IMG/VR virus record: IMGVR_UViG_3300032342_002150
Span: 1-20,498 of that record
Length of the DNA: 20,498 bases
Direction: 5' to 3' (one strand)
Source of the DNA: a virus
Shown here piece by piece: positions 5,968 to 20,432 of the stretch. Under the pieces are notes generated by a model. That model worked only from the letters and a program-made list of their open reading frames with translations, searched no databases and had not been told where the DNA came from. A program made the translations under genes and the position numbers. The first letter of the stretch is position 1. Each line of letters starts with the position of its first letter.

Positions 5968-8900
5968 ATGGGGAATTTAGTAAAAGTTACCAATAAGCAG
6001 GTTTATTTGGCGGCATTAGGTTCTGAGGCCGATGAAGTCATTATAGGCAACCTTAAGTCATCTGTCTTTAAGCCAGAGATCACCTTCACCAAATGGAATA
6101 AAGAAAACTCCCTCACTATCAAACCCCTCTTTGATATACCTAATGCCACCACTTCACTTGTAGGAAACAAGATTGAACACAAAGGGGATAAGATAGGCTG
6201 GTATGCTAATCCTGATGGTGTGGAGAATATGAAATTTGGGATTATCTTCTATGAAAAACCTATCTCAAATAAATGGTCGGCGACAATTCCTGAATACGGA
6301 GAATATGATTTTAACTTTCAGCCTCTTTTTTCTAATGTGGATACTGAAGGCAATTCTTGGGAGAAATGTTCTGATAGTGAAGAAGAAAAGACAAGTCTAT
6401 TACCTCATAAAGCAAAATTATTCCGTCCTGCTGGAATAGGTGGTGGCTATTGTGTATATCATAAGAATAAGAAACACCATATTATAGGTCAGACTAATTA
6501 TATGGTTGGAAAGATTGGTGATATTCATCGACCCAAATTTATAGACGCTACTGGTAAATGGGTTTGGGGAGAGATAGAAATAAAAGACGGAGTTTTAACC
6601 GAAACCTGCCCTCAAGATTTTCTTGATTCTGCGATTTATCCAGTAAAGAGTAATGCCACTTTTGGATATACAAATCAAGGAGCAAGTGATGGATATACTG
6701 GTCCAGGAAAAACTATTTATTTATATTTTAATGTTGATTCTCCTACTGGAAGTAATACTTTAAATTATATTAGTATTTGTATTTTTCCTTGGGCATCTGA
6801 AACGACAATATTTGGTTTATATTCAACTAAGACAGGTCCTGCTCCAGATGCAAGGTTATTTAGAGATGTGGATGAATGGGCTTTTGGGACAACAGGAAAA
6901 AACTTCTACACTAATCCAGTAGATATGAATTATGCTTTGACTGCTTCCACTCGTTATTGGGGGGCAATGAGTTCCGATGCGGAATCGGGAAGAAGTTGGT
7001 ATTTTGACCAAGATGGTGTTCAGGCAAAGAGCTATCGTGAAGTTGGAATTTTTCCAGCATCTGCTGCTTCGGATTATGATGGAGATTATTCAAACTTTAC
7101 AGCATCTATCTACGCCACCTACACCGCAGGGGGGGGGAGTTCATCATCAAGTTCGTCTTCGTCTAGTAGTTCAAGTTCATCCAGTTCTTCCTCATCGAGT
7201 AAATCCAGCAGCTCTTCTTCAAGTTCATCATCTTCTTCGAGCTCTAGTAGCTTATCGTCGTCATCCAGCTCTTCTTCAAGTTCTTCTTCGAGCTCTAGTA
7301 GTAAGTCTAGTTCATCTTCATCGTCCTCGAGTTCTAGTAGCTTATCGTCTTCATCCAGCTCTTCTTCAAGTTCTTCTTCAAGCTCATCATCTTCTCTTAG
7401 TTCAAGCTCGAGTTCATCTAGTTCTTCATCGAGCAGTAGCTCATCTTCTTCATTGAGTTCCAGTAGCTCCAGCTCTTCAAGCTCTAGCTCCAGCAGTTCT
7501 TTGAGCTCTTCGTCTTCATCGAGTTCTTCTTCATCTAGTAGTAGCTCTTCAAGTCTTTCGAGTTCGTCTTCGTCTAGCTCTTCGTCTTCGTCTAGCTCTT
7601 CAAGCAGCTTATCTTCTAGTAGTTCTTCGAGCAGTTCATCATCTAGTCTTTCTTCTTCCTCGAGTTCATCTAGTTCATCTTCATCTTCTAGTTCTTCTTC
7701 TTCGTCCAGTTTATCCAATTCTAGCAGTTCTTCATCTTCGAGTTCAAGTTCCTCTTCTTCCTCGAGTAAGTCTTCTTCGAGCTCATCGAGCTCATCATCG
7801 TCCAGTACGGAATCTTCTAGCTCGAGTTCTAGTAGTAGTTCTTCTTCTTCCTCGAGTAGCAGCAGTTCTTCTTCAAGTAGTTTAAGCTCCTCGAGCTCTA
7901 GCTCATCTTCATCTTCTTCTTCGTCCAGTTTATCGTCTTCATCTTCTTCTTCCAGTTCAAGCTCTTCTTCTTCTTCAAGCTCGAGATCTAGCTCTTCTTC
8001 TTCATCTTCTAGCTCATCTTCATCTTTTAGTTCGAGTTCAAGCTCTAGCTCTTCAAGCTCGTCTTCCTCGAGTTTGTCATCTAGCTCCAGCAGTAGCTCT
8101 TCTAGTTCGAGTTTTTCTTCCAGCTCGGCTAGTTCTTTATCTTCTTCTTCCAGCAGTAGCTCTTCGTCTTCATCTAGCAGCTCATCCAGCAGCTCATCCA
8201 GCTCCTCGTCTTCATCTAGCAGTAGTAGATCTTCCGTTTCATCTTCCAGTTCTTCTAGTTCTAGCTCCTCTTCATCAAGTAGCTCTCATTACTGGATAGA
8301 CCGGGGGGAGAGATCCGGGACCTGGACAGACAGAGCCCAAAAGACTGGGTCATGGATTGATCGCGCGGAACAAGATACTAATTGGCAGGCCCGGGAGAGC
8401 TCATCTAGCTCCAGCAGTAGCTCGAGCTCAAGTTCGTCTTCATCTATTTCGTCTTCCAGCTCAAGCAGTAGCTCTTCATCGTCTTCCAGCTCATCATCTT
8501 CTAGTTCGAGCTCTTCTTTAAGTTCTTCTTCGTCTAGCAGCTCAGAGAGTGGATCTTTTAGTTCCTCGAGCAGTTCGAGCAGTTCTTCTTCTTCTAGTTC
8601 GAGCTCTTCTTCATCGAGTTCTAGATCTTCTAGCTCATCTTCTTCTTCCAGCTCGAGCTCTAGTTTATCGAGTAGCTCTAGGTCTTCATCTAGTTCATCT
8701 AGTTCTTCTTCTTCATCCTCGAGTTCATCCTCGAGTCAAAGTTCTTCTTCAAGTTCTTCGAGCTCCAGCTCTAGCAGTTCTTCATCTTCATCTTCAAGCT
8801 CAAAATCTAGCTCTTCATCATCCTCTTCCAGCTCAAGCTCGAGTTCAAGATCTTCCTCATCTTCATCCAGTTCAGCTACCACAGTAACTAAATTTTATCT

Positions 8901-9495: not shown

Positions 9496-10161
9496 ATGCA
9501 ACTTTCATTATTTAAGACTTATGTAAAACAAGATTTTAAGAGGACAGATAAAGATACAGAATTGGTCCAGGCCTATAATGATTCGATTGTTTTTATCGCA
9601 GTCCTTATGCCACATGGAGGGTATAAATATCAGAGTTATCTTCCTTCGGTGGCCTCTCAGCCGGATTATCCTTTGCCGACAGATATGATTCATCTTATTC
9701 ATCCGGTCCGGCTCCTGGAAGGATCCGGTACTAATGATTCCGGGTATCCGATGGATCATATCACAAAGCAGGAATATGATGAGTACGAGATAAATCCTAA
9801 TCGGGCCAGTCCTTCGACCGGCAAGCCCGTAAGATATTGTATTTTTTCCCGATCAATTCTACCTAGTCCGATTCCGGATCTCAGTACTTATCTTTTTGAA
9901 ATCGACTGGTCCAAGCGGCCGGTTGCTTTATCCGGGGATAGCGATCTTCATAGTTTGGGATCAGAATATGATGAGATCTTAAAATGTATGACTCTGGCCA
10001 GGCTTAATGCTGGCCTAGAGCTTTTCCAGGAGGCGGCATTCTGGGCCTCTCTTTACCAAGATCAAGAAGGGAATCCGGCTGGGATGTTAAAAAGGCTTTT
10101 GGATATTGAAAGAGATAGAGAATCTAAGGCCATAGGCCAGGTACAAAATAACGATTTATAA
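9496..10161 (+). CDS. head-tail adaptor/connector candidate
   Basis: The 221-residue protein begins with a helical stretch containing an AYNDSIVFI pattern. It continues with PTDMIHLIHPVRL (59-72), a TGKPVRYCIF strand, a PSPIPDLSTYLFEIDWSKRPVAL segment, and a long C-terminal helix (EYDEILKCMTLARLNAGLEL). This order of helix, beta-sheet with PxD-x-Y-x-[LF] motif and C-terminal helix is typical of podovirus and siphovirus adaptor proteins that sit under the portal. An AAGGAGG ribosome site overlaps the stop of the fibre gene. Composition returns sharply to the CCGG-rich native type. The assignment rests on pattern memory and genome position, not on an alignment. Confidence 0.55.
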   Translation: MQLSLFKTYVKQDFKRTDKDTELVQAYNDSIVFIAVLMPHGGYKYQSYLPSVASQPDYPLPTDMIHLIHPVRLLEGSGTNDSGYPMDHITKQEYDEYEINPNRASPSTGKPVRYCIFSRSILPSPIPDLSTYLFEIDWSKRPVALSGDSDLHSLGSEYDEILKCMTLARLNAGLELFQEAAFWASLYQDQEGNPAGMLKRLLDIERDRESKAIGQVQNNDL

Positions 10162-10172
10162 GGAGGGTTAAA

Positions 10173-11045
10173 ATGGCAGATAAAGCGATAGTTCATACAG
10201 AGACTTGGGCGGAATCAATACCGGCCGGAACAGAGGCCAAATCCTTGGGAGATGATAGGATACGCGCGATGAAAAAGGCCCTAGGGGAACGCTGGCAGAT
10301 CGATCATGTTGGTTTTGTGAATGAGTCCGGAGAGACTCTAGTCGGGACCCATAAGCAAGTTACAATGGCGGCTTTAGCGGCTGATCCGACGAGTTATGAT
10401 AATGTTGGGTATGTTTATACAAAAACTATGTCCGGAATCATTGAATTGTTTTATGAAGATTCTTCTGGGAATGTTTTACAGATCACAAAGGGAGGGAAGT
10501 TAATTTTAGATGGAGGATATTTACCTAATAATACTTTTCTCCAGGCTCTTAATGCGGCCGGGAATGCTTATATCGATATGATTAAAGTTAATGCCTCCAA
10601 TAAGCCGGTATTGCCGGATGGCGCGCAGTTAGCAACTTCCGCAGCTCCGACGCAGGATGCAGATATCTCAAATAAGAAATTCGTCGATGATTCAAAGCAG
10701 GTCGCGAAGGATTATGCGGATACTCAGATAGCAGCCGCGGCCTCAGATACTGCCGCGATCGGATCCGCTTATGTCAAAGATACGATTTATCAGAATACCT
10801 CGGCTAAGAAATTATTAGTCATTGCCTGTTTTGTGGGTAAAGATGATTTATTTATAACGGGTTATTGTGATGCTAATGCTGCTCCTTCGACGATCGTCGA
10901 TAAAGATTCCGATATATCTGATTCCAGCCAGTCCACTTGGGGGAAGGTTGTTATGGTAGTTCCTCCTAATTATTACTGGAAGGTAGCAGCTACCTCAAGC
11001 GATATGACTCCGACAGTCGTTAGATATGAGAGTTTTGAGATTTAA
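10173..11045 (+). CDS. tail-fibre-like protein, 290 aa
   Basis: The N-terminus contains TWAESIPAGTEAKSLGDDRIRAMK, with GDD-x-IR at 26-31 followed by ER-x3-DH. This motif is very common at the start of short phage tail fibres and appendage proteins. A middle part with AAPTQDADISNKKFVDD (157-173) and a helical stretch AKDYADTQIAAAASD is typical of fibre shafts. The C-terminal 90 residues form a small beta domain (VVMVVPPNYYWKVAAT). The ribosome site is AAGGAGGG. Sitting between adaptor and nozzle candidates, it could be a second receptor-binding protein or a fibre that carries the poly-serine protein. Confidence 0.6.
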   Translation: MADKAIVHTETWAESIPAGTEAKSLGDDRIRAMKKALGERWQIDHVGFVNESGETLVGTHKQVTMAALAADPTSYDNVGYVYTKTMSGIIELFYEDSSGNVLQITKGGKLILDGGYLPNNTFLQALNAAGNAYIDMIKVNASNKPVLPDGAQLATSAAPTQDADISNKKFVDDSKQVAKDYADTQIAAAASDTAAIGSAYVKDTIYQNTSAKKLLVIACFVGKDDLFITGYCDANAAPSTIVDKDSDISDSSQSTWGKVVMVVPPNYYWKVAATSSDMTPTVVRYESFEI

Positions 11046-11060
11046 TATAAGGAGGGGATT

Positions 11061-12608
11061 ATGCCTCTATTAAGAAAAGGGATTATTTTACCGGCTAAGG
11101 GAGTGGATTTTAGCGTCCCGGCCAGCTATGTAACGGACCAAAATACCTTCTCGAAGAATATGCGTTTTTACCGGGGAGAATTAGGCAAGCGTCCAGGTAA
11201 GACAACTTTCGGGGATGCTATCTCCGGAGGCCAGATCATGGGATTTGGAGTTATGGAGTTGGCCAGTATTAAGTATTTAGTTAGGGCCTCTAAGACAAAA
11301 TTAGAGAAATATAATACCACTACGAAGGTTTGGGATTCTATAAGTGGATCAGATTTTACCGGAGGGGATGAAAACTTTTTCTCTTTTGCCAATATCCCGG
11401 AGAGTGAATTACTGATTATCAGTAATGGAGGATACAATTTACTTCGGAAGTGGACAGGGGCCGGCAATGCGGCGGCGCTAGGAGGGGATCCTCCAAAAGC
11501 TAAATACATGACTTATTTAACTCCGTATTTACTGCTGGCGCATATAGATGATGGAGCAAGTATAAATCCCTGGAAGGTACAATGGTGCGATGCTGGGAAT
11601 CCGGAGCTCTGGGCCGGTGGTACATCCGGATCTGATATGTTATCCAGGGATCCTTCTCCGATCATGAATATCATGAGGCTTAATGAATTTGCCGCAGTCT
11701 ATAAGCAGGATGCTTTATGCCTGGGCCAGCTGGTGAGTAATAGCGATATTTTTCAGTTTTCTCCTATCAAATCCGGTATAGGCCTGGCTGCATCCCGGGC
11801 CCTGGCTGAGGCTGAGGGGATGCATTATTTTATGGCTGCGAATGATTTTTATAGATGGAATGGGATCCGGGAGGAGTCGATAGGAGGCCCGATAAGGGAT
11901 GAAGTCTTTAGCCGGTTAGACCGGGAGAAGATTATGCGTTGTTTTGCCCTCCATGTCCAGGAATTGACTGAAATTTGGTTTTATATTGTGGTTTCCGGAG
12001 CATCCTGGCCGACAGAAGTCTGGAAGTTTAATTATCGGACCGGATTCTGGTATTATGATACATGCCTGGAGCTTACTGCGGCCATAAAGTGGCAGAAGAT
12101 CGCCAGCGAGACCTGGGATGATGATGCTGGGACCTGGGATGAGGCCTTGGATGTATGGGATGCCGGGGATTCTACCAAAAATTGGGAGGAGATAGTTTTT
12201 GGGGATAAGGATGGAGTAACTTCAAGGCTCGATTATACGAAAGCAGATGACGGGAGCGTGGCAGTCGAGGCGGTTTTTGAAACGAAGGATTTTATTGCGG
12301 ATGAGATAGGGCAGAAGATCCGCTGGGAGCAGTTGGATATTGTGGCCAGGGGATCTTACGAAGCCAAGTTTTATGTTGATTATTCGATCGATGAAGGAGA
12401 TACTTGGGTTAATATACCTTATACGAGCAGCCAGGCGTACTGCAAGTTGGCTGAGAAAATAGCGTTGTATAATTTTTGGTTTGATGTTTATGCGTCGGAG
12501 AAGGGGATAAGATTTAGGGCCAGGAATGCGGAATCCGGAGAGCTCTTTTTTATCCGGGGTTTGCAGCCTTATTATTTATCAAAAGAGCAGAAAAAGACTG
12601 CTAGATAA
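11061..12608 (+). CDS. tail nozzle/packaged-DNA stabilisation-like protein (P22 gp10-type candidate)
   Basis: The 515-residue protein starts with a GVDFSVPASYVTDQN segment and FYRGELGKRPGKTTF, then many repeated beta strands. It includes WKVQWCDAGNPELWAGG, a MNIMRLNEFAAVYKQDALCL strand pair, and a GIGLAASRALAEAEGMHYFMAANDFYRWNG segment. This series matches the beta-propeller stabilisation or nozzle proteins of P22-like phages and their many metagenomic relatives. Tryptophans W352, W359, W366 and W375 mark a short repeat (TWDDDAGTWDEALDVWDAG), often seen in the same proteins. The ribosome site is AAGGAGGGG. It would close the tail tube below the adaptor. Confidence 0.6.
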   Translation: MPLLRKGIILPAKGVDFSVPASYVTDQNTFSKNMRFYRGELGKRPGKTTFGDAISGGQIMGFGVMELASIKYLVRASKTKLEKYNTTTKVWDSISGSDFTGGDENFFSFANIPESELLIISNGGYNLLRKWTGAGNAAALGGDPPKAKYMTYLTPYLLLAHIDDGASINPWKVQWCDAGNPELWAGGTSGSDMLSRDPSPIMNIMRLNEFAAVYKQDALCLGQLVSNSDIFQFSPIKSGIGLAASRALAEAEGMHYFMAANDFYRWNGIREESIGGPIRDEVFSRLDREKIMRCFALHVQELTEIWFYIVVSGASWPTEVWKFNYRTGFWYYDTCLELTAAIKWQKIASETWDDDAGTWDEALDVWDAGDSTKNWEEIVFGDKDGVTSRLDYTKADDGSVAVEAVFETKDFIADEIGQKIRWEQLDIVARGSYEAKFYVDYSIDEGDTWVNIPYTSSQAYCKLAEKIALYNFWFDVYASEKGIRFRARNAESGELFFIRGLQPYYLSKEQKKTAR

Positions 12609-12619
12609 GGAGGGATTTG

Positions 12620-12961
12620 ATGGATTTTACAGAGGGAGGTATGGCCATAAGTCTTATAAGCGTATCGATAGCAGTACTCAAGATGGCTTGGGATGGTAAA
12701 AAACAGAGTAATAATAATTCAGAGAAAAACAATAATAATACCGAAAGGGTGAGGTTAAATGGAGTACAGGATAAGATCGATGCGGTAAGATTGCAGAAAG
12801 ATTTATCTGAGAGGCCGACTTTTAGAGAGAGCGACGAGAGATATCCTAATATCGGGTTATGTGAAGAGATACATAAAAGAATAGATGAAAAATTAGAATG
12901 TCTTCCGGAGATAAAAGAAAGCCTTATCAAAGTTAAAATTAAATTAGGAATTGAAGAATAA
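12620..12961 (+). CDS. small membrane-anchored protein, lysis or virion accessory
   Basis: The AGGAGG at 12608-12613 lies 6 bases before the ATG at 12620, so I prefer this start to the TTG three bases upstream. Residues 6-24 are one hydrophobic helix. An asparagine-rich linker (NNNSEKNNNN, 31-40) follows, then a charged helical C-terminus of about 70 residues with possible coiled-coil character (IHKRIDEKLECLPEIKESLIKVKIKL). The size and layout fit spanin-like, holin-accessory or tail-anchor proteins. No family is recognised. The next gene but one has a lipobox, so the pair may act together in the envelope. Confidence 0.65.
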   Translation: MDFTEGGMAISLISVSIAVLKMAWDGKKQSNNNSEKNNNNTERVRLNGVQDKIDAVRLQKDLSERPTFRESDERYPNIGLCEEIHKRIDEKLECLPEIKESLIKVKIKLGIEE

Positions 12962-12970
12962 AAGGAGGTG

Positions 12971-13033
12971 ATGAAAACGGGAAGGGAAGTTTTAAGAGAG
13001 AAAATAAAAACAGTTAAAAGGAGGATGAGATGA
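12971..13033 (+). CDS. possible 20-aa leader peptide
   Basis: A 20-codon frame (MKTGREVLREKIKTVKRRMR) ends in TGA overlapping the ATG of the lipoprotein gene as ATGA, the same coupling used across the cassette. A very strong anti-16S match, AAAGGAGGTG at 12961-12970, precedes it, but the spacing to the ATG is only 2 bases, which is poor. The next gene has its own AGGAGG at 13019-13024. It could be a real coupling peptide, or the upstream match may be only a ribosome standby site. Confidence 0.3.
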   Translation: MKTGREVLREKIKTVKRRMR

Positions 13034-13437
13034 GAACTTTTCAGATTTTTGTTTTAGTATTATGTATATTATTTACTTTAACATTGGCCGGATGCGCGCT
13101 TTTAAATAAAACTTTTCCCTCTCAGCTAGACGCAAGCGGAAATCCGATCCCGGGTACGCATCAGGCAAGCTCTCAGCAGCAGGCAGCAGCCGGGCTATTG
13201 CCTTATGGAATGGGGAGTATAGCTTTGAATGGCTTGCTTTTGGTAATGAATGGCTTTGAAAAATATAAAGCCGCGAAGATAGGTAAAGGATTAAAGGCAA
13301 CTGTCTCCGCTATTAAGCAAATTAAGGATGATCCTGCTTTGAAAGCTCAATGGGATTTAATCCAGTCGATCCTTTCCGGAGCGCATAATGCGGCCGGGGT
13401 TACGCCATTGATTAAAAGTTACATAGCTAAGATATAA
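13030..13437 (+). CDS. lipoprotein, 135 aa
   Basis: A short hydrophobic signal (residues 3-20) ends in a lipobox L19-A20-G21-C22, so C22 would be lipidated and become the mature N-terminus. The mature part has a glutamine/alanine/serine-rich stretch, a second hydrophobic segment at about 53-74, and a lysine-rich helical tail. Phages encode lipoproteins as outer spanins or as superinfection-exclusion factors. The extra hydrophobic segment is not typical of a spanin. The lipobox suggests a host with lipoprotein processing, and an outer membrane if the spanin idea holds. AGGAGG lies 5 bases before the ATG. Confidence 0.72.
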   Translation: MRTFQIFVLVLCILFTLTLAGCALLNKTFPSQLDASGNPIPGTHQASSQQQAAAGLLPYGMGSIALNGLLLVMNGFEKYKAAKIGKGLKATVSAIKQIKDDPALKAQWDLIQSILSGAHNAAGVTPLIKSYIAKI

Positions 13438-13438
13438 A

Positions 13439-13939
13439 ATGTGGATATTTATTGTTATTTTAGCGGCTGCGGTTTTAGCAGGGATCCTGGGGAGATGCGG
13501 AGGCGCAGAAAAAAAGGCCCCGGATGATGGTTGGAATTGGCTGCGTAATACCCATACCAGGGATAAAGGCATAGCTGCCATCTTTACAGCCTTAATGGTT
13601 TGGATGACTATTAAGGATTTTAACTGGTTATATCTGGGAGCTTACATAATAGGATTCCTGGCGCTGATGGGGGCCTTGACGACTTACTTGGATGAAGTTT
13701 TTGGATACGATAATTATTGGGCCGCCGGAGCTCTGGTAGGTTTTAGCGCAGTACTTTATCCTGGGGTTTCTGGCCATTGGATCGGATTCGTACTGAGGAT
13801 GGGCCTCTTAGTATTGATTTGGGGCTTGTTGCATAAATACCTTCCTAAAAAGGTCCTTTATTGGGGGAAGGATGTTGCGGAGGAGTTTTTAAGATATGCA
13901 AGCGTGATCCTTACGATCCGCTTGTTATTCAAATTATAA
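13439..13939 (+). CDS. polytopic membrane protein, holin-like candidate
   Basis: The 166 residues contain about five hydrophobic segments (1-18, 44-58, 63-82, 95-110, 115-131) and a final weaker one at about 152-164. A soluble loop (KKAPDDGWNWLRNTHTRDKG) follows the first. The ATG comes one base after the preceding stop with no ribosome site of its own, so translation is likely coupled to the lipoprotein gene. Together with the two upstream membrane-associated proteins it looks like an envelope or lysis group, but five segments is many for a holin. No family is recognised. A superinfection-exclusion protein is an alternative. Confidence 0.68.
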   Translation: MWIFIVILAAAVLAGILGRCGGAEKKAPDDGWNWLRNTHTRDKGIAAIFTALMVWMTIKDFNWLYLGAYIIGFLALMGALTTYLDEVFGYDNYWAAGALVGFSAVLYPGVSGHWIGFVLRMGLLVLIWGLLHKYLPKKVLYWGKDVAEEFLRYASVILTIRLLFKL

Positions 13940-13940
13940 G

Positions 13941-13976
13941 AGGAGGCGCTGGCTTTTAGCCAGCTGGCTTTATATG
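13941..13976 (+). promoter_or_regulatory. hairpin-spaced ribosome binding site
   Basis: AGGAGG (13941-13946) lies 27 bases before the only in-frame start (ATG 13974). Between them GCTGGC (13948-13953) can pair with GCCAGC (13959-13964) across a 5-base loop. Folding the 17-base hairpin leaves an effective spacer of about 10 bases. The sequence also shows a 15-base-offset direct repeat GCTGGCTTT (13948 and 13963), which suggests that a duplication moved the site away. T4-like phages use comparable folded ribosome sites. Confidence 0.5.
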
Positions 13977-14312
13977 AGATTAAGAATTCAGACAGCAAAG
14001 CCGGAGAGCGCATTTGAAAAATCTCTTGAGCAGGAATTGCAGAGATTTTGTTTAGAGTTATCCGGGTTTTTAGATAAGGGGTTAAAATTTTCCGACAATT
14101 TTGATGCTCAGATTATAGAGGTTGCGGATACCGGGCTTGCCAGTACCGAGTTTAGCGTAGCGCATACCTTAAAAAGGGTCCCGACAGGATTTTTGATTAT
14201 AAATAAAGATAAGACCGGGAATGGTTATGATTCCGGTACTGCCTGGACAGATACAGCTATTTATCTAAAATACAGTACAGCGAATACTGCTTTAACCTTA
14301 TTGGTATTTTGA
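13974..14312 (+). CDS. small tail-associated protein, 112 aa
   Basis: The first 45 residues are helical (ESAFEKSLEQELQRFCLEL). From about 58 the protein has a TEFSVAHTLKRVPTGFLIIN segment and ends with TAWTDTAIYLKYSTANTALTLLVF. A V-x-H-x-L-x3-P-x-G strand followed by W-T/S-x3-I-x-L and a final hydrophobic strand is a recurrent small beta-sandwich pattern in phage tail regions, usually annotated only as phage protein. Its ribosome site is separated by a hairpin (see 13941-13976). The role is probably structural, in the tail or an appendage. Confidence 0.65.
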   Translation: MRLRIQTAKPESAFEKSLEQELQRFCLELSGFLDKGLKFSDNFDAQIIEVADTGLASTEFSVAHTLKRVPTGFLIINKDKTGNGYDSGTAWTDTAIYLKYSTANTALTLLVF

Positions 14313-14313
14313 G

Positions 14314-14847
14314 ATGCTTAAATTGATAGAAGTAAAAGATCAGATTCTTAATTATCTTCCGCTTATCCATAAGTGGCATAATGAGCCCAGGATAGGCCCT
14401 AAGATAGGATGCACTAAACCTCCGGATGTCCAGGAGACAGCTAAGCTTTTAATGGTCTGGAAGAAGGATCCGGCGCGCAGGGTATTTATGATCGAGTATA
14501 AAGGATCTTATATCGGCTATGTCTCATTATCCGGCATCAACCTGGAATGCGGTTTTTGCGATCTACATACCATCGTCGGAGAAACTAAATATCTGGGTAA
14601 GCCGGTATGCGTCGAGGTCGTGGATAAGATTTTGGGTATAGCTTTTAATGAGATGAAAATGTTTAGGGTCAATACTTATGTCCTGGGAGATAACCCAGCA
14701 TTAAGAAAGGTTGCTATTAAATACGGATGGAAGGAAGAAGGCATCATCCGGAAATTACTTTTGTCCCGGGAAGGCGAGAGGATAGACTGCCATTTATTCG
14801 GCATGTTAAAAAATGAGTTTAAGCCAAGGAGGAAAAAATGCCAATAG
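14314..14847 (+). CDS. GNAT-family acetyltransferase (RimJ/RimL-like)
   Basis: The 177 residues follow the GNAT order. A variable N-terminal part is followed by FMIEYKGSYIGYVSLSGI (58-75) as the beta hairpin, and a TIVGETKYLGKPVCVEVVDKILGIAF stretch (86-111) where acetyl-CoA pyrophosphate is bound. Then comes FRVNTYVLGDNPALRKVAIKYGWKEEG (117-143), which matches the N-x-x-a-x-x-x-x-x-k-x-G-F/W signature. It starts one base after the preceding stop with no clear ribosome site, and overlaps the next gene by 10 bases. It ends in TAG. Relatives acetylate protein N-termini or amino sugars. A link to the sugar cassette is possible but it lies 8 kb away, among structural genes. Confidence 0.8.
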   Translation: MLKLIEVKDQILNYLPLIHKWHNEPRIGPKIGCTKPPDVQETAKLLMVWKKDPARRVFMIEYKGSYIGYVSLSGINLECGFCDLHTIVGETKYLGKPVCVEVVDKILGIAFNEMKMFRVNTYVLGDNPALRKVAIKYGWKEEGIIRKLLLSREGERIDCHLFGMLKNEFKPRRKKCQ

Positions 14848-16487: not shown

Positions 16488-19400
16488 ATGACTAATCAAT
16501 TCGGATTTGTCCAAGATGAAGATCTTGGATTTGTAGCGGATAAGACTGCGAAGGCAGCAACTGAGGACCTGGGATTTACTCCGGAGACTAAGCCTAATCC
16601 GGCTTTGAACCTGGAGTCTGCTTTTAATAATGAGAAAGAGATGATCAAGCTGCAAAAGTTTGATCAAGTGGCAGTAGCTCAGAAGGAGCAGGCCTTCCAG
16701 AAATTCTATGCGGATATCGCTAAGGCTAATAAACTGGATCCGAATCCGGATAATCCTCAGCATTTTTACGATTACCGGGCTTATTTTGATGCTATCCAGG
16801 CAGGCCAGGCCGAGTCTCCGCAATTTAGGCCGGAGCATAAGCAATTCCGGATGCCGGATGAATTCAAACTCCCGGGCCATCCTCAATACTATACTAATAC
16901 AGATCCGCAAGTCTGGACTTTAGAGCAGACGCAAGAGTTCCTCAAGGAACATCCGGCTCAGAATCCGGAGCAGGAGGCGCAATATCATGCCTTCCTGGAT
17001 GCTAAGAAGGCCCAGGTTGAGCGGCTCCAGGCCAGTTATACGGATTACGATCGTTATGTCCATGGGCAATTCAATAAGCAGTTGGCAGAGAAAAAAGAAT
17101 ATCCCCATGAAGAGCTTTTAAGGGATCCGGAGAAAATGTCTGATTTTGAGTCTTTTATGATTCCTTATGTTAAAGGAGTTGCCGGATTCTTTACCAGGCC
17201 TTTCGGAGTGGAGCCTTTTGGCAGTACTTTCTCCCCGGAAGAAATTAAACAGGCAGAAAAGGATAATCCGATAGCCTCAGCAGTAGGGAAGGCGATCGGA
17301 GGGCTTACTCCGGTCGCGGCAGCAATTACAATCGCTCCGGAGACTCTCTTGGGCCAGATCTTTGCCTTTGCCGGGACCGGGGCCATAAGGCAGATAGGAA
17401 TTGAGAAGACTCAAGCTAGCCTTATGGATCAAGAGGCTGCTCAAAAAAGGATCGTTAAGGCTACCTTAAAGAGCGCAGCCATGGCTCCTTTGTGGTATTA
17501 CACTAAAGCGATCAGCCTGGGAGGGCCTATAACCTCTATTCTTACCCGGGGCGCAGTACGCGGAGCCGGGACCGGAGGCATAGAGAAAGTCTCTGGAACT
17601 TCGACTCAAGAGGCAGTTATGACTGGTTTAGCAACTGCGGCCTTAAGCGCGGTTTTTGAATTGACTCCTTATGCGATAGATAAAATCAATACCTCAGTAA
17701 AGAATAAGAATCTGGATGTTATGGCTGAGACTCTTGTAAAGAATGATCAGGATCTGCGCAATGCCATGGTCCAGAATTATACCGCTAAATATGGCCAGGC
17801 TCCCAGCGAAGAAGAATTGACAAAGATGATTCGGGCCGGCCTTACGATTGAAGTTGTTAAGAATAATTTTTCTACTTCTAAGATTGTGATCGCTGCCGAT
17901 AGAATGAAGAGATACTACGAACCCAGGATCCCGGAGGTTATGCCATCTCCGGAGGCAGGCCAGATGGTTTTACCTTTCAGCGAAGGCGATATCGTAAAGG
18001 TCGCAGGAGTTGTCGGGAAGATTTCTAAGATCGTCGGAGATAATGCGGTTATAGTCTCGACGCTGGGGAAGGAATTTGCTACTCAGTTAAATAATATACA
18101 GGCAACCGGGCTTAAGCCGCAGGAAGTCCCGGATGATTTTTTTAAGAAGGTCCCGGAGGATAAGAAGGAATATGTAAAGAATTTATTTAAGATTGAGAAT
18201 CCCGAAGTCATCGAAGAGATGATCAATAACGATCCGCATTACCAGAAGGCGCTTATCCGCAATAAGCAACTGGGCCAGAAAGTCTTTGCGGAATCGGATA
18301 ACCCGGAAGAATGGCCGGATCATTACAAACCTTACCTGGATAAATTTATTAAACCTAATGTGTTGGCAGCGCAAGGTAAGCCGGAGGCGATTATCTGGAT
18401 GGGCCTTCCGGGATCCGGGAAGACTCAGATGGCTAAGGCGCAAGGATTAGATAAGACTCATATACAAATAGATCCGGATGACGCTAAATTTTTCATCCCG
18501 GAGACTGCGCAGGATCCTAGCGTGGCCGATTATGTACATAAGGAATCAGCTTACATGGCGGATAAGCTTTTATTCCAGAAGGCCCTGGAGCAGAATAAAA
18601 ATATCATCTGGCCGCTAGTCGGGAAGAATCCTGAGAAGGTTAAGGAAGTGATCCAGGCCTTACGGGATGCCGGGTATTCAATAGAGCTTAATTATAACCG
18701 GTTATCAACAATAGAATCGAAGAAAAGATCCTATAAGAGATTTTTGGAGGATAAAAGATTTGTTTCGACGGAATATATCGAAGGAGTAGGGGAATATAAA
18801 CTAGATAAGAATTATGAGGCGCTTAAAGGATTAGCGGATAAATTCGCATCCTGGGATGTAAATACCAAGATAGGAGAGTTTCCCAGGGGAATAGACAAAG
18901 GAGCTAACGATGCAGAAAAAATCGCAGCAGGACAAGGTACGGGATCCGGACGAGGTAAGGGTGGAATATCTAAGGCAGGCGGTGGAGAAGGGAAAGCAGG
19001 AGAAGGTAAAGAAGTAGCTGGAGATATTTTTATTGGTCCGGGTTTTCGTGTGGAAACTAATTTGGTAGTTAAAGGTAAAACCGCTAAAGAAATTATAGAT
19101 TTTGAGGCGGACGAATTAGGTAATGAGGATATACGAACACAAGCTAATTCTTTAGGTTTAGATCTTAAGAATATCCCGGAGAAAGATGTTATTTGGGTAA
19201 CAAAGAATCAGAAAAATGCTAAGGATTACGGAGAAGAAGTAGATCAAGTAGAACTAGGTCCTAATCCTCTTATTTTAGCAACGGATGGCCAGGGGGGATA
19301 TCTTATTGTTAAAAATATCAAAGAGATTCCTCAGAATGTATCTCCGGAAGAAGTCCCTAGTATCATCCAGGAAGAATTTGATAAACTTCCTCCAGAAGAG

Positions 19401-20432
19401 CAGGCGCGCTATGAGCTCGAGATGGATGATCTCCGTAAGACTCCGGAAGGCAACCTATTTATCGCAATTAAACAACTAGGAGGCATCAAGCCTTATGTTT
19501 CAACTGGCGCAGAGCCCGGTACTAAGTTCCTAGCCGAAGAGCTCCAGAGCGTTCCTTTTTATCTTAAGAATGTTAAGACCGGCAGTACCATGGATAGCAT
19601 CGTCTCTGAGCTTAAAACTTTTGGCTGGCACTTTGACTCAAGCGATGATCTCCTGGAAGAGATCAAGCGCCAGGCCTCTAATCCGGTGGCTAAGGTAGAT
19701 CGAGCTAGTTTGCAGAAGGTGATCCGGGAGGCTAAGAAGAATCAAAAGCTCCAACAGAAAATGCTGGATAAGATTCTTCCTGGTAAGCGCCGCAAGTTCA
19801 TTACCACAGTTAAAGAGGCAGCTAAGACTGCTCCGGAGGTAGCCGCTAAGATAGAATCGCGCTATGAGCCTATAACTAACAAGGAGACTCTTAAGCAGGC
19901 CCAGGATTTTGTGGCAGCTAATTATAACGATGCCATTGAGCTCGTAGAAGGCCCTAGCCGAACGAGTACCTTTACGAACGCAGTAGGTATCGTTTTGATC
20001 GATAAAGCTCAAGCTGAGATGCGCTGGGCTGATGCTATAAGGCTTGTAGAAACACTTGCCGAAAAGAATACCTCTTTAGGCCAGGCTATTCAGGCCTTGG
20101 CCATGTATGAGAGATTGAGTCCGGAAGGGATCCTCCAGTACGCGGAGAGACAAGTCCAGAGAGCCCGGGGTAACATTAAACAAAAAGAGCGCATAACTAA
20201 TTATGAAAAGCTCTCTAAAGGCTTAAAGACCCAGGCCGAAAAGGATAAACTAGCCGAGAAGCTGGGGATCCCTCATATCTCCGAGACAGTAGCTGGGGAG
20301 CTCCGGAAGATGTCTGAGATGATCCGTAGGTTGCCATCTGCCGAAGACTGGCCGGATTTCTTAAATGTGCCTCCCAGGAATGCTTATCTGTATGTTATGG
20401 ATATATTTAAGAAGATGGAAGATGCCGTATAG
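16488..20432 (+). CDS. polyvalent-type ejected protein with zeta-toxin-like kinase domain, 1314 aa
   Basis: Residues 1-35 repeat a DLGFV/DLGFT motif. About 225-395 is rich in G, A and hydrophobic residues, as in membrane-active ejection proteins. About 496-540 may be an SH3/KOW-like beta barrel. Residues 632-800 look like a zeta-toxin kinase: Walker A GLPGSGKT at 639-646, IDPDDAKFFIPE at 661-672 with acidic catalytic candidates, and a basic KKRSYKRF...R757 helix for the phosphates. A Gly/Lys linker (816-845) leads to a module ending DGQGGYLIVK (933-942). Residues 1127-1227 resemble the helical domain of large phage polyvalent proteins (LGQAIQALAMYERLSPEGIL). Such proteins enter the cell with phage DNA. 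Ribosome site GAGG. The TAG stop may not be the original end (see 20433-20498). Confidence 0.75.
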   Translation: MTNQFGFVQDEDLGFVADKTAKAATEDLGFTPETKPNPALNLESAFNNEKEMIKLQKFDQVAVAQKEQAFQKFYADIAKANKLDPNPDNPQHFYDYRAYFDAIQAGQAESPQFRPEHKQFRMPDEFKLPGHPQYYTNTDPQVWTLEQTQEFLKEHPAQNPEQEAQYHAFLDAKKAQVERLQASYTDYDRYVHGQFNKQLAEKKEYPHEELLRDPEKMSDFESFMIPYVKGVAGFFTRPFGVEPFGSTFSPEEIKQAEKDNPIASAVGKAIGGLTPVAAAITIAPETLLGQIFAFAGTGAIRQIGIEKTQASLMDQEAAQKRIVKATLKSAAMAPLWYYTKAISLGGPITSILTRGAVRGAGTGGIEKVSGTSTQEAVMTGLATAALSAVFELTPYAIDKINTSVKNKNLDVMAETLVKNDQDLRNAMVQNYTAKYGQAPSEEELTKMIRAGLTIEVVKNNFSTSKIVIAADRMKRYYEPRIPEVMPSPEAGQMVLPFSEGDIVKVAGVVGKISKIVGDNAVIVSTLGKEFATQLNNIQATGLKPQEVPDDFFKKVPEDKKEYVKNLFKIENPEVIEEMINNDPHYQKALIRNKQLGQKVFAESDNPEEWPDHYKPYLDKFIKPNVLAAQGKPEAIIWMGLPGSGKTQMAKAQGLDKTHIQIDPDDAKFFIPETAQDPSVADYVHKESAYMADKLLFQKALEQNKNIIWPLVGKNPEKVKEVIQALRDAGYSIELNYNRLSTIESKKRSYKRFLEDKRFVSTEYIEGVGEYKLDKNYEALKGLADKFASWDVNTKIGEFPRGIDKGANDAEKIAAGQGTGSGRGKGGISKAGGGEGKAGEGKEVAGDIFIGPGFRVETNLVVKGKTAKEIIDFEADELGNEDIRTQANSLGLDLKNIPEKDVIWVTKNQKNAKDYGEEVDQVELGPNPLILATDGQGGYLIVKNIKEIPQNVSPEEVPSIIQEEFDKLPPEEQARYELEMDDLRKTPEGNLFIAIKQLGGIKPYVSTGAEPGTKFLAEELQSVPFYLKNVKTGSTMDSIVSELKTFGWHFDSSDDLLEEIKRQASNPVAKVDRASLQKVIREAKKNQKLQQKMLDKILPGKRRKFITTVKEAAKTAPEVAAKIESRYEPITNKETLKQAQDFVAANYNDAIELVEGPSRTSTFTNAVGIVLIDKAQAEMRWADAIRLVETLAEKNTSLGQAIQALAMYERLSPEGILQYAERQVQRARGNIKQKERITNYEKLSKGLKTQAEKDKLAEKLGIPHISETVAGELRKMSEMIRRLPSAEDWPDFLNVPPRNAYLYVMDIFKKMEDAV

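Follow-up and report, generated by a model that had tools for sequence, protein, structure and literature searches.

Split ribosome-binding sites, in which a hairpin folded between a distant Shine-Dalgarno (SD) sequence and the start codon shortens the gap between them, are named for few genes in the portions of the literature cited here: T4 gene 25, T4 gene 38, and Escherichia coli thrS (PMC3014915, PMC3936740). As described there, the hairpin of T4 gene 25 shortens the SD-to-AUG distance from 27 to 11 nt, a case confirmed by DMS probing and lacZ fusions, and that of T4 gene 38 shortens it from 22 to 5 nt (PMC3014915). Mutations that destabilize these hairpins are reported to lower initiation in T4, and the same source describes distant T4 relatives without the gene 25 split site (PMC3014915). 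For thrS, the ribosome is described as accommodating a folded hairpin without melting it (PMC3936740).

The locus described here lies in an uncultured virus, record IMGVR_UViG_3300032342_002150, all 20,498 nt (20.5 kb) of which were analyzed and are called the window below. An earlier note on this DNA had proposed a folded ribosome-binding site and had named T4-like phages as the precedent. Within that group, genes 25 and 38 are the right comparison, going by the part of the T4 literature cited (PMC3014915), and their sequences, which we read directly, have the same layout as the window site. A tail gene (11061-12608), whose product matches PHROG 3287, a virion structural protein, and also distantly matches a particle protein of LUZ24 and other Pseudomonas phages, is followed, on the plus strand, by two small genes (12620-12961 and 13030-13437), a gene for a 166-aa protein predicted by eye to be a membrane protein (13439-13939), the target gene for a 112-aa protein (13974-14312), and a GNAT acetyltransferase-like gene (14314-14847). 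The three small genes between the tail gene and the target gene (12620-13939) have membrane or lipoprotein-like starts by eye and look like a lysis-type block, and no family match was found for them; the closest relative has four small genes there. Farther along, behind the structural genes, residues 628-767 of a 1,314-aa protein (16488-20432) match a Zeta-toxin/P-loop kinase domain (Pfam E 1.3e-17), and radical SAM-like and nucleotide-sugar-epimerase-like genes (PHROG matches) lie near the left end of the window at 167-1692.

The stop codon of the membrane protein gene (TAA, 13937-13939) is directly adjoined by the SD site GAGGAGG (13940-13946, plus strand; -12.0 kcal/mol as a duplex with the usual anti-SD), after which come one base, a hairpin, nine bases, and the ATG at 13974-13976. 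Direct reading bears out the earlier note's coordinates and its distance of 27 nt from AGGAGG to ATG 13974, as well as its claim that no other start is usable: going upstream, the frame stays open only as far as TGA 13905, and none of the 22 codons in between is ATG, GTG, TTG, CTG, or ATT. The hairpin, GCTGGC-TTTTA-GCCAGC (13948-13964, plus strand; -10.5 kcal/mol alone), likewise has the 6-bp stem and 5-base loop described there, with arms at 13948-13953 and 13959-13964, and looping it out leaves 10 nt between the SD and the ATG. The stem can gain a seventh pair, U-A, which narrows the loop to 3 nt.

The start at ATG 13974 is also credible from the sequences of related proteins. The target product aligns with that of locus L001 from residue 1 (50% identity, alignment A1), and the products of L002 and L003, 37% identical to the target protein, start nearby. 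The best SD within 14 nt of this start reaches only -2.2 kcal/mol. Among 20 gene starts scored in the window, ten others have an SD at or below -10 kcal/mol, all at a spacing of 3-5, and the target gene is the sole start with a strong SD out of range (the scoring script's own distance measure puts its -12.0 SD at 26). GGAGG is not rare in the window, with 56 copies on the plus strand and 12 on the minus strand, so a single stray copy would be unremarkable in itself; but the GAGGAGG here is intergenic and stands right behind a stop codon. As at the T4 gene 25 and 38 sites, the SD is too far from the start, at 27 nt, and there is no nearer SD or start. A gene finder expecting an SD within about 15 nt would label this start SD-less.

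By prediction, the second feature of the T4 gene 25 and 38 type, a stable hairpin that stays within the spacer and shortens the spacing to some 5-11 nt (here 10), is present as well. The stem has a predicted probability of 0.98-1.0 in five contexts of 66 to 400 nt. When the spacer was shuffled 20,000 times, 149 of the shuffles had a stem of at least 6 bp; among the real 27-mers of the window, 433 of 20,471 did. The spacer folds at -11.9 kcal/mol, a stability reached by 2 of 5,000 shuffles and by 21 of 6,824 window 27-mers. Over a 71-nt surrounding stretch, the advantage over shuffled sequence is only modest (z -1.58; 11 of 200 did as well). Opening the SD and the start while keeping the hairpin has a predicted cost of 8.0-10.9 kcal/mol. 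Opening the hairpin too would cost 20.0-22.3 kcal/mol, above any other start in the window, compared with a context-dependent 3.8-18.5 kcal/mol for opening positions -35 to +12 at the other 19 starts; in this model, initiation at ATG 13974 is therefore plausible only with the hairpin still folded. The start side (13966-13971) is predicted to pair with 13997-14002 in shorter contexts (0.94-0.99), and at 200 and 400 nt this pairing falls to 0.0 and 0.05. Where it forms, it would hinder initiation and would need to open.

Taking sequence, predicted folding, and analogy together, we consider it reasonably probable that the leader is a split ribosome-binding site of the T4 gene 25/gene 38 type. The 34 nt between the upstream and target genes would act as the site: a 30S subunit would pair with GAGGAGG right behind the upstream stop codon, and the folded hairpin would stay on the ribosome platform and be skipped, so that AUG 13974 would come to lie at a workable 10 nt from the SD and translation of the 112-aa particle gene could start. 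The acetyltransferase gene at 14314 would probably be served by the same entry site through tight coupling, since it is without an SD of its own and begins 1 nt after the target gene stop. Such use by ribosomes, and an effect on expression, are what we infer from the sequence, the geometry, the predicted stability, and the presence of the hairpin in a related virus. The split-site idea of the earlier note thus gains backing from the T4 precedent, from the predicted stem, and from the same arms at a near-equal looped spacing in that relative.

The relative, L029, is the closest found that covers the site. Its product is 60% identical to the target protein and has 117 aa, starting three residues earlier than the window product, and its leader reads AACGGA-GCTGGC-CGC-GCCAGC-GTGATTCT-ATG. 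Both 6-nt arms are identical in the two viruses, while the loop (TTTTA vs CGC) and the flanks differ. In L029, too, the arms sit between an SD-like stretch and the ATG, with no SD within 14 nt. This sole SD-like stretch, GGAG, is weak (-5.8), and its last G doubles as the first base of the stem, which keeps five pairs if the shared G is given to the SD. The L029 stem is predicted at 0.96-1.0. Spacing is 22 nt linear and 9 looped in L029, against 27 linear and 10 looped in the window, as if selection acted on the folded distance. The same arms arose in 1 of 20,000 shuffles of the 30-nt L029 leader and any 6-bp stem in 642 of 20,000, rates that are uncorrected for the several relatives examined. 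Shared descent alone, however, is not an absurd explanation for identical arms, because at the 69% nucleotide identity of the two ORFs (233/336) the chance that none of the 12 arm bases changes is about 1.2%. The two sequences, a small number in any case, offer no covariation, since the arms are identical.

The case for a shared hairpin comes from the arms and where they sit, not from an overall alignment, because alignments of the leaders fail. A local alignment of the window and L029 leaders was no better than shuffles (924 of 5,000 as good), MAFFT on a longer stretch left the two hairpins unpaired with each other, and around the L029 3' arm 14 nt match the window's upstream gene at its end, a better match than with the window leader and one that 77 of 5,000 shuffles equal. 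The boundary of the upstream gene differs as well. In L029 the membrane protein gene runs 13 nt into the target gene (7903-7915), and the hairpin lies inside the 3' end of the former, whereas in the window the hairpin follows the upstream stop. Both membrane proteins end near a common ASVIL, and a local comparison of the two scores no higher than shuffled sequences do (172 of 2,000); the hairpin may have moved with the gene, or the upstream frame may have grown across it.

More distant relatives lack the arrangement. In three lineages, represented by L001 (of which L030 is the same locus), L031, and the near-identical pair L002/L003, the gene starts directly behind the tail gene or overlaps it; SD-like sites lie at a distance of 4-12 nt, and the longest stems have 3-4 bp (4 bp in L031). 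None of these has extra small genes between the tail gene and the target gene, where the window has three and L029 four. The hairpin is accordingly found in both of the block-carrying lineages that reach the site and in none of the three without the block. Relatives that keep the product with neither the stem nor a displaced SD, which the earlier note had counted against its idea, do exist in these three distant lineages, but the closest relative is not one of them: L029, the one relative with the arrangement, keeps it, there with a less strong SD and with the upstream gene running into the target gene. Two further loci stop short of the site, L028, which resembles L029 closely in the stretch compared, and L032, which ends within the tail gene; in L033, the most distant tail-gene match (19%), the target protein was not matched. 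The split site appears to have arisen in the lineage in which additional small genes separate the tail gene from the target gene. That it arose independently of T4 and has been maintained whole as the end of the upstream gene shifted over it is a tentative idea, which we hold to be less likely than not.

In searches for relatives, the target protein retrieved L001-L003 only, and a tail-protein profile search yielded loci L028-L033. The tail, membrane, and acetyltransferase proteins, each scanned singly, gave no relatives, and no provirus relatives turned up when genome contigs were scanned twice. Annotated phages gave no DNA match and no match to the target protein; tail-protein matches occurred in 125 of their records, all distant (<60% identity) and mainly Pseudomonas phages, including LUZ24.

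Two surveys looked at the layout more widely. Viral DNA totaling 211 kb contained 569 ORFs of 90 aa or more. In 13 of them a GGAGG stands 18-35 nt away with no SD-like tetramer closer in, and 2 of the 13 have a stem of at least 6 bp; these two are the target gene and an ORF in locus L019, the latter preselected by a pattern that demands a stem. Scanning by pattern for a GGAGG and an ATG with the window's arms between them returned 17 stretches, in most of which the ATG opens a short or internal frame. The L019 stretch (10145-10180, minus strand) has GGAGG, one base, a 7-bp hairpin with the loop ATGAC, ten bases, and the ATG of a 146-aa ORF, which lies upstream of a 487-aa ORF that is terminase-like by eye and has no match in Pfam. 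The loop contains a second ATG, which opens a 111-aa out-of-frame ORF. L019 is one of four related loci found, and identity to the remaining three is only 32-35%. From its sequence, L019 is possibly an unrelated, independent split site.

As an alternative to ribosomes entering at a split site, those ending at TAA 13937 might be held by the adjacent SD and restart at ATG 13974, with the hairpin minor or neutral. Translational coupling of this kind is probably in use at the neighboring genes 13439 and 14314, because neither has a recognizable SD and each begins 1 nt behind the preceding stop, and the SD of the target gene itself begins directly after the upstream stop. The 13-nt gene overlap in L029 would fit coupling as well, and so would a target gene that starts where the tail gene ends, as it does in L001, L002/L003, and L031. 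Here, however, stop and start are 34 nt apart, far above the coupled neighbors, the SD is strong enough to work alone, and coupling leaves unexplained the identical arms in two viruses with different stop positions; we regard it as unlikely to be the main explanation.

The hairpin could also be a conserved RNA element with another job, such as the site of an autoregulatory protein or a brake on initiation, to which SD spacing would be secondary. Inhibitory and protein-bound leader hairpins are described in T4 in the part of the source cited (PMC3014915), some predicted folds of the window leader also pair the SD or the start side, and between the window and L029 the arms are better preserved than the SD. 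Yet the loop, the usual protein-contact part, is not kept, the SD and AUG lie outside the stable stem, and Rfam 15 gave 0 matches in the window at gathering score, all of which makes such a role quite improbable. The temperature control suggested in the earlier note finds no support. An RNA thermometer would have the SD or the start in a helix that melts on warming; here the SD is outside the main stem, which in the model stays formed at a probability of 0.99-1.0 from 10 to 65 C.

A small duplication or drift at the junction of the gene block might instead have left a GC-rich hairpin of no consequence. The earlier note had described a 15-base direct repeat and a duplication that displaced the SD. 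The repeat really comprises 9 exact bases, GCTGGCTTT, at 13948-13956 and 13963-13971 (plus strand) with a period of 15, and over 15 positions 10 match; with so short a repeat, and with L029 having the hairpin and no repeat, the duplication is unsupported. The repeat and the extra genes relative to L001, L002/L003, and L031 could be signs of such a scar, but the hairpin is rare in shuffles, the same arms precede the repeat-free L029 orthologue, and the target gene is without any better SD, which leaves a scar or chance very unlikely. A duplicated and decayed second leader at about 13879-13911 was also considered, and no test supported it; the comparison of the leader with the upstream sequence returned just the stretch common to both inputs. 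Finally, a weak intrinsic terminator or attenuator between the two genes is scarcely credible: a terminator-like match does exist (13948-13968, tail TTTATATGAG), but 1 kb holds two such matches against 1.2 (sd 1.1) in shuffles, its pairing reaches -6.9 kcal/mol vs -11.7 for the main hairpin, the main stem is followed by TGGCTTTAT with no T run, and an SD placed upstream of a terminator would be wasted.

If the window leader is a split ribosome-binding site, an unrelated second phage lineage would have reached the same solution, which would then recur when genes are inserted. The window and L029 also form a natural pair of variants, in which the loop, the linear spacing, and SD strength differ and the looped spacing is similar; on the split-site reading, this pair would be a clean test of ribosome skipping over a folded spacer.

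Among the described systems, E. coli thrS would resemble the window site in that a folded hairpin is accommodated unmelted, as far as the thrS source covers it. The thrS leader differs in being long and autoregulated, with several structured domains, and nothing similar was seen in the window. T4 gene 38 shares a GC-rich hairpin between SD and AUG, and its linear spacing of 22 nt is that of L029; its looped spacing is 5, compared with 10 in the window and 9 in L029. T4 gene 25, at the gene 26-25 junction, is like the window site in its far SD and its hairpin before the AUG (27 to 11 nt, here 27 to 10), and, as described in the source, in being a late structural gene with the arrangement in near relatives only. 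It is an unrelated gene in an unrelated phage, with the SD GAGG in place of GAGGAGG, and the hairpin here is GC-rich; its split site is reported as proven by reporters and DMS probing, whereas ours is known from sequence and prediction. Judged by this analogy, the window leader is a probable further instance, in an uncultured phage lineage, of the layout already known from T4.
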